Shown here piece after piece: positions 1,053 to 1,320 of a DNA stretch of 39,022 bases. The stretch spans positions 366 to 39,387 of the forward strand of contig NZAZ01000020.1 in the NCBI GenBank assembly GCA_002686255.1, written 5' to 3'. The DNA is from Rhodospirillaceae bacterium. GTDB taxonomy: Bacteria > Pseudomonadota > Alphaproteobacteria > Rhodospirillales > Casp-alpha2. Under the pieces are notes generated by a model that worked only from the letters and a program-made list of their open reading frames with translations, ran no database searches and was not told the origin of the DNA. Within the stretch, counting starts at the first letter, position 1. Each line of letters starts with the position of its first letter. The position numbers and the translations under genes were made by a program.

Positions 1053-1320
1053 AGTGGATAGAATCTAACTTATGGAACCCATACGATCCCATATCCCGGT
1101 TTCTCGGCAGGAGAACGCCCGCGGGCGATGCGGGGCCATCGGCAAGGGGGCTCGACGCGCCCTAAGAAGCCGGGATATGGGACCCGAAGGGCGGCTTCCC
1201 AAGCCCACCGGATGCGTTGCCCGATGCTTGTGATGCGCCGGCATCACCGCGCATCGCGCGCCTTTCCGGATGAACTTGGGAAGCCGTCGTATGGGGTCCA
1301 TAAGTTAGATTCTATCCACT
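1053..1320. repeat. 268-bp palindromic element with 34-bp terminal inverted repeats and nested stems
   Basis: Bases 1053-1086 (beginning AGTGGATAGAATCTAACTTA) are the reverse complement of 1287-1320 at 33 of 34 positions. Inside, 1087-1104 pairs with 1165-1182 at 17 of 18 positions, and 1192-1203 pairs perfectly with 1275-1286. Smaller stems sit in the two loops (1126-1130 with 1137-1141; the TGATGC/GCATCA hairpin near 1231-1246; CCC-GAA-GGG at 1183-1191). The result is a three-way-junction or cloverleaf fold available to DNA strands or RNA. No convincing reading frame and no target-site duplication are seen. The right end is 15 bases before the hldD start codon. It could be a MITE-like non-autonomous mobile element, a structured leader, or both. 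The rest of the 916-1335 gap holds the ubiK ribosome-binding site, GC-rich hairpins (972-984, 1005-1020) and the candidate promoter. Confidence 0.85.

Follow-up and report, generated by a model that had tools for sequence, protein, structure and literature searches.

The 268-bp palindrome that lies just before hldD in the 39,022-nucleotide stretch of DNA analyzed here (the window) is genuine and far beyond chance. We consider it probable that this palindrome is one member of a dispersed family of non-autonomous IS630-type MITEs and that selection maintains its folded interior as a single-strand structure. Comparison with other genomes supports the view that copies insert at TA and that their inverted repeats match IS630 transposons of related genomes. 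As expected of a MITE, the element is bounded by terminal inverted repeats (34-bp arms, 97%), and it is short, non-coding, and multi-copy. No conserved reading frame was found in 101 copies, in which open frames occurred in all six phases and 13 copies had none at all. A coding element had been considered because the AGGAG...GATG of domain A resembles a ribosome site, but it was rejected on the grounds of the apical-loop lengths given below and the unconserved frames.

The arms could be read directly at positions 1053-1086 and 1287-1320, 34 nt each and 97% complementary, as the initial annotation had described them. Its two inner pairs were also borne out by direct reading, one of 18 bp at 1087-1104/1165-1182 (17/18, the odd pair being T-G) and one of 12 bp at 1192-1203/1275-1286. 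RNA folding of positions 1040-1340 gave -174.2 kcal/mol (z -11), and 0 of 100 shuffles equaled it, which upholds the earlier claim that the palindrome is far beyond chance. The predicted fold is a four-way junction with zero unpaired junction bases, and its order is that of a cloverleaf: outer stem P1 (1053-1086/1287-1320), domain A to 1182, a small hairpin (1183-1191), and domain B (1192-1286). The transposon itself most likely spans 1054-1319 (266 bp) and is flanked by the dinucleotides CA (1052-1053) and TA (1320-1321). The left flank was read as a degenerate copy of the 2-bp target, given the 268-bp net insertion relative to the empty leaders of two relatives (G001 and G002), and the right flank rests on direct reading and the empty leaders. 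The left terminal inverted repeat, the 5' strand of P1 (1054-1086, plus), was delimited by arm complementarity, P1 covariation, and IS630 ends, and the right one, the 3' strand of P1 (1287-1319, plus), by arm complementarity. Domain A is a hairpin module at 1085-1184 (plus), of which 1085-1086 also close P1. The small third hairpin of the junction, CCC-GAA-GGG (1183-1191, plus), was found by alignment, covariation, and the predicted fold.

The element lies 5' of hldD, the gene for ADP-glyceromanno-heptose 6-epimerase (1336-2322, plus; TIGR02197, 399.6 bits, above cut-off), and the hldD ATG at 1336 is 15 bases past the end of the arm at 1320, as had been annotated. On its other side, a gene on the minus strand (523-915) encodes a BMFP/UbiK-type protein (PF04380, 78 bits; NCBIfam UbiK model below cut-off) with, by reading, a long lysine/alanine-rich tail. 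A promoter had been proposed at 1012-1040, so that the element would fall within the hldD leader. The -35-like hexamer TTGCGG of this putative native hldD promoter (1012-1017, plus) was kept in 8/9 readable leaders of the genus and TATAAGAC in 9/9, the leader of one relative (G008) being truncated at a contig end. The putative -10-like hexamer TATAAG (1035-1040, plus) follows 17 nt after the -35-like hexamer, and the conserved TATAAG just 5' of the element agrees with the proposed location in the leader, nearly all of which the element would make up. A consensus promoter scan yielded no site at its threshold, this candidate included. The hldD gene was present in 10/10 genomes of the genus, and its leader was short and element-free in 8 of them. 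The two with the element were the window's genome and G008, where a contig end cuts it. Compared with the empty leaders, the net insertion is 268 bp, that is, 266 bp + 2; the left flank is CA, and there is no TA at the corresponding place in the empty leaders. On the simplest reading, the element landed between the hldD promoter and the start codon in an ancestor shared by two species of the genus. This distribution, with further sites empty in relatives, fits the recent arrival suggested earlier. The further suggestion of co-option, as a structured leader or as a small RNA, gains no support: the element is at hldD in only 2/10 genomes, and the predicted accessibility of 1321-1345 differs little between the leader that contains the element (0.38) and one in which its flanks are joined (0.34).

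A search for further copies had been proposed, and it revealed a family. In the draft genome to which the window belongs (3.16 Mb, 167 contigs), the 268 bases had 34 BLASTN matches, which grouping reduced to about 27 places. Three matches spanned the whole query, and the rest were complete with other ends, broken, or at contig ends. Matches to the element were found in 18/41 genomes (its own and 40 relatives). We built a covariance model of domain A (R1; 98 positions) from 32 copies, the window copy among them, and applied it with a threshold of E 1e-6. With its own genome counted each time, R1-positive genomes numbered 59/150 in the order, 20/289 in the class, and 5/398 in the phylum, with misses possible; searches of more than 40 genomes used stricter filters and scored few candidates per genome (27, 14, or 10), so match-free genomes may be misses. 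The core motif was present in at least 116 stretches of named genomes, and the 80 motif matches listed came only from MAGs of Rhodospirillales, Rhodospirillaceae, Alphaproteobacteria, or Proteobacteria/Pseudomonadota. Outside the class, a copy in genome G672 (R1 E 1.1e-12) matched Vibrio campbellii NZ_CP050465.1 (71.5%, 5 places) and V. tritonius pMA35 (67.8%, 4 places), and its predicted fold has the arrangement of the window element. A lone R1 match in genome G778 (E 1.2e-7) was judged doubtful. The core motif was found in no viral contigs, BLASTN gave no match for the window element against plasmids and phages or for three distant copies against plasmids, and no Vibrio-type copy was found in E. 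coli genomes. Within the V. tritonius pMA35 copy (L309 2521-2688), a hypothetical protein, WP_156430415.1, is annotated, which is probably a spurious gene. With many copies at the ends of contigs and one carrying the annotation of a small hypothetical gene, such a family is easy to miss or to misannotate. It is large and apparently undescribed; in a literature search with most subscription journals outside reach, we recognized none of the titles or listed abstracts as describing this family.

Next, we considered the ends of the copies and their targets. From 159 distinct domain A copies, we set aside 31 with no B half in reach and 13 with too little flank and traced the outer stem in the remaining 115, although the tracing runs past the true ends in some rows. 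The ends were mostly of a few types, including TAGTGG..., TAGTAC..., TAGTGTCC..., and TATACCAA..., and typically lay at TA, often inside CTAG. Empty sites in relatives, which the initial annotation had recommended looking for, were found at hldD and at two further loci. At L014, the filled site reads TTTCCCCCC-TA[element]TA-AGTTTATG and the empty site in G008 reads TTTACCCCT-TA-AGTTTATG; the site is also empty in G001, but with TG where G008 has TA. At L011, the filled site reads GACC-TA[element]TT-GGATC, with an imperfect right-hand target copy (TT), and the empty site in G001 reads GACC-TA-TGGATC; the site is also empty in G002 and G008, with several bases missing there. These two comparisons with relatives point to a TA target, imperfectly. 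As in other MITEs, there are empty sites and a target-site duplication, with TA on both sides at L014 but a degenerate right-hand copy at L011 and a degenerate left-hand copy at hldD. A 48-bp relic at L253 1501-1548 (G000:C3:7226-7273) consists of the two terminal repeats directly abutting each other and lacks the core.

We also examined IS630 transposons as candidate mobilizers. PF13358 had 21 matches in 8/14 genomes and none in the window's genome, an incomplete draft. An IS630 transposase in the same genome, as in a RUP-like IS630-mobilized MITE, was therefore not found, and the mobilizer in the window's genome is absent, lost, or unassembled. Matching ends were present at 3 of the 21 PF13358 loci. 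Two of these loci, L277 (from the window's genus) and L285, are 1232 bp and carry NF033545 IS630 transposases, and their ends are identical to the GTGGCCTG-type MITE end at 20, 20, 21, and 22 of 23 positions. Beyond CTAG, 16-18/19 positions are identical, whereas the best of 200,000 random 19-mers reached 13; a second control with 1796 CTAG sites carries little information, since many of these are the family's own ends. At the third locus, L283 (NF033545), both ends matched the window's own terminal inverted repeat (TIR) type at 17/23, and the left end keeps CCCATACG. The IS630 ends of L272, L273, and L278 matched poorly (4-13/23, with L272 read one base off). As expected of a MITE, the family thus has ends in common with autonomous IS elements, at 20-22/23 for one TIR type (L277 and L285) and at only 17/23 for the type found in the window (L283). 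The left end of the L277 transposon (1292-2598) abuts the remains of a TACCAAGG-type family copy, which is not continued beyond a few bases in the right flank. An IS630 transposase supplied in trans would move the element, and a mobilizer in the window's genus would bear AGTGGATAGAATCTAAC ends. Taken together, the multiple copies, the mostly TA-bounded ends, the empty sites, and the matching IS630 ends agree with the initial view of a MITE-like mobile element.

At least four TIR types occur together in the window's genome. On the core tree, the nine TIR classes are clustered, yet they need 32 changes against a least possible 8, a rough figure because the class labels were made by regular expression and are partly wrong (L024, a TACCAA copy, was labeled GTGTCCTG). 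Copy L035 has GTGGCCTG-type ends, yet its core groups with GTGGATA-type cores (support 99/92). These three observations suggest that cores and ends have recombined or that ends have been replaced. Across genera, the interior is recognizably conserved, and the transposon ends are the part that differs.

To describe the core, we used an alignment of 33 near-complete copies (A1) out of 41 cut out, excluding L004-L007, L033, L059, L060, and L066 as partial or interrupted, and a second alignment of 32 rows (A2) that also leaves out L015. RNAalifold on the 33 copies gave 90 pairs, of which 67 had at least one double-sided change; in P1, 27/30 pairs had such changes. On the consensus structure, 95.4% of cells were paired in the 33 copies, compared with 77.2% after shuffling. 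Covariation was 0.483 versus 0.150 (sd 0.006) for shuffled alignments and at most 0.099 with partners slid, values to be read with the caveats that the structure was derived from the same alignment and is favored over slid versions and that relatedness inflates the shuffle comparison. The domain A letters YAGGA, GGCGATG...CATCGKCAAG, and CGACG hardly vary among copies (CAGGA in the window), and the internal-loop letters are nearly invariant. The apical loop of domain A has 6 nt in 121/159 copies and 5 nt in 26/159, with 12 unread. In L002, L003, L047, and L048, the third hairpin is expanded by about 12 or more bases and the junction is kept. Four copies (L059, L067, L082, and L203) have domain B interrupted by an identical or nearly identical palindrome, short and GC-rich (about AAGCGAAGCTCCGGCTTCGCGCAGGC), as though the cloverleaf family were itself the target of another small repeat.

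The two halves of the core resemble each other in opposite senses. On the window, R1 matched 1085-1184 on the plus strand (90.2 bits, E 1.9e-21) and domain B at 1190-1288 on the minus strand (52 bits, E 2.3e-11), and the complement of domain A itself scored 31.1. At E 0.01, an opposite-sense B match was found in 27/33 A1 copies and none in 6/33; it scored above the complement of A in 24 of those 27 copies, in some only slightly, and not in the other 3. No same-sense B match was listed among the 33 copies, and the consensus of domain A and that of reversed domain B have an identical motif order. As judged from these matches, domain B is a diverged reverse-complement copy of domain A.

We then compared G·U with A·C mispairs. 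In domain A, there were 498 G·U versus 58 A·C in 193 distinct sequences, from nhmmer sets that contain matches from both strands, and 55 versus 12 in 30 representatives (<80% identity) after clustering. On the plus strand of domain B, the bias is reversed, with 47 G·U versus 148 A·C (one junction column left out) and 17 versus 37 after clustering (26 representatives); in strict helices, clustered, it is weak (10 versus 17). The outer stem is near balance (27 versus 19; clustered, 5 versus 5). This pattern would fit P1 as double-stranded transposon ends and domain A, perhaps with B in the opposite sense, as a single-strand fold. On the combined grounds of covariation, near-invariant loops, and wobble asymmetry, the core seems to have been under selection for folding as a single strand, probably of RNA. 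Such a conserved, strand-asymmetric, inverted-dimer core with several transposon ends would be beyond the single-sequence view of the initial annotation.

A MITE that works only as DNA, its arms kept alike by replication template switching or cruciform action and with no RNA role, is a rather unlikely alternative. Template-switch correction of imperfect palindromes is known, and the near-perfect outer stem with nearly symmetric mispairs would suit it. However, as far as we can see, neither process predicts the near-invariant internal-loop letters or the excess of G·U over A·C in domain A. The strand asymmetry would fit single-stranded DNA as well as RNA, and the inverted hairpin pairs resemble REP dimers as described in the part of PMC3733652 available, which raises the idea of a hairpin that a Y1/RAYT-like enzyme, or another one that reads hairpins, recognizes as the element moves, in REP or attC style. 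We find this idea improbable, because TA targets and IS630-type ends point to double-strand cut-and-paste; the TA-bounded IS630-type ends also argue against an attC site.

Dedicated roles in gene control fare worse. A cis-regulatory, riboswitch-like hldD leader is suggested by an element that follows a conserved promoter-like site and occupies the leader until 15 nt remain before the ATG, yet this reading is scarcely credible: the empty leaders in most of the genus largely refute it and led us to reject an hldD-specific riboswitch, copies lie at many other places, and the window had no Rfam match that reached a gathering score. A known RNA family was likewise rejected, since a permissive Rfam scan of 14 other loci, including one doubtful copy (L295), gave only weak matches far below gathering scores, none of them credible. 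The initial annotation had held that a single copy with no relatives and no conserved pairing in orthologous hldD leaders would argue against both an element family and a functional RNA; for the family, that outcome is absent, but the orthologous hldD leaders are mostly without the element. A bidirectional terminator or attenuator spread by transposition, to which the very stable stem and the many copies adjoining gene ends would lend themselves, is very improbable. In keeping with the initial annotation, which recognized no terminator in the element, there are 0 terminator-like sites (a G+C-rich stem and then a T run) in 900-1400, and an intrinsic terminator was rejected. By heuristic ORF calls, the 85 copies with enough flank comprised 29 tandem, 13 divergent, and 7 convergent settings and 36 copies overlapping ORFs, the last being in many cases short frames within the element and in others long ORFs whose called start enters it. 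Convergent neighbors thus flank only 7/49 classifiable copies, and in 17/29 tandem copies the remaining gaps sum to ≤60 bp, short and operon-like. Therefore, insertion in operon-like gaps is tolerated. With the missing terminator-like site and the near-equal accessibility, this tolerance would favor a self-contained fold that spares its neighbors over a terminator.

We accordingly return to the IS630-type MITE with a folded core. The outer stem, hairpin domain A, the small hairpin, and domain B would meet at a four-way junction, and selection would act on this core as a folded single strand, most likely the RNA made from copies that lie in transcribed regions. Since each half is an inverted copy of the other, a similar hairpin module would be presented whichever side transcription enters from. 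Our best guess at its use is that a self-contained fold with read-through makes insertions inside transcription units tolerable, and a host factor may be bound at the conserved internal loops. More tentatively, and as a possibility that we would not yet favor, the family may be a mobile, orientation-neutral structured RNA: a conserved module, protein-binding or otherwise active, whose duplication in inverted form lets either strand encode it. Such a module would spread through Alphaproteobacteria and Vibrio by adopting the ends of one IS630 transposon after another, and its insertions into leaders and operons would thereby be tolerated or regulated.

The nearest described kind that we found is RUP (repeat unit of pneumococcus) with IS630-Spn1, by which RUP was proposed to be mobilized (PMC2229807 and PMC3049150, in the parts available). 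Like the cloverleaf element, RUP is non-autonomous and intergenic, with IS630-like ends, a TA target, and a folded transcript (same parts of PMC2229807 and PMC3049150). Unlike it, RUP is 107 bp, occurs in pneumococcus and close streptococci, and is enriched between convergent genes (PMC3049150, in part). Nezha, a cyanobacterial MITE, is alike in its proposed mobilization by a resident IS (ISNpu3-like; PMC3049150, in part) and differs, by description, in its hosts. Correia/NEMIS and ERIC are also TA-ended repeats with folding transcripts, but by description they are about 100-200 bp, and the part of PMC2229807 available does not mention such a core. REPs are palindromic and often dimers, and their CGTC type is mostly alphaproteobacterial; however, they are 20-40 bp units tagged GTAG or CGTC, whereas the element is a 266-bp unit with IS630-type ends (PMC3733652, in part). 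CIR of Caulobacter/Brucella is an alphaproteobacterial intergenic repeat with two arms, but its 5' and 3' ends are unpaired, whereas those of the element are paired by P1 (PMC2229807, in part). Compared by description with RUP, the element is longer at 266 bp and differs in its many alphaproteobacterial genera plus Vibrio, its inverted-dimer four-way junction, and its several TIR types.

MITEs are usually viewed as shrunken insertion sequences with disposable interiors. In the family described here, the interior is conserved and the ends differ, and the core shows strong covariation and a strand bias indicative of a role as a single strand. Should the core function as RNA, the family would constitute a class of structured RNAs dispersed by transposition, and the question of why so many bacterial repeats fold would become testable.
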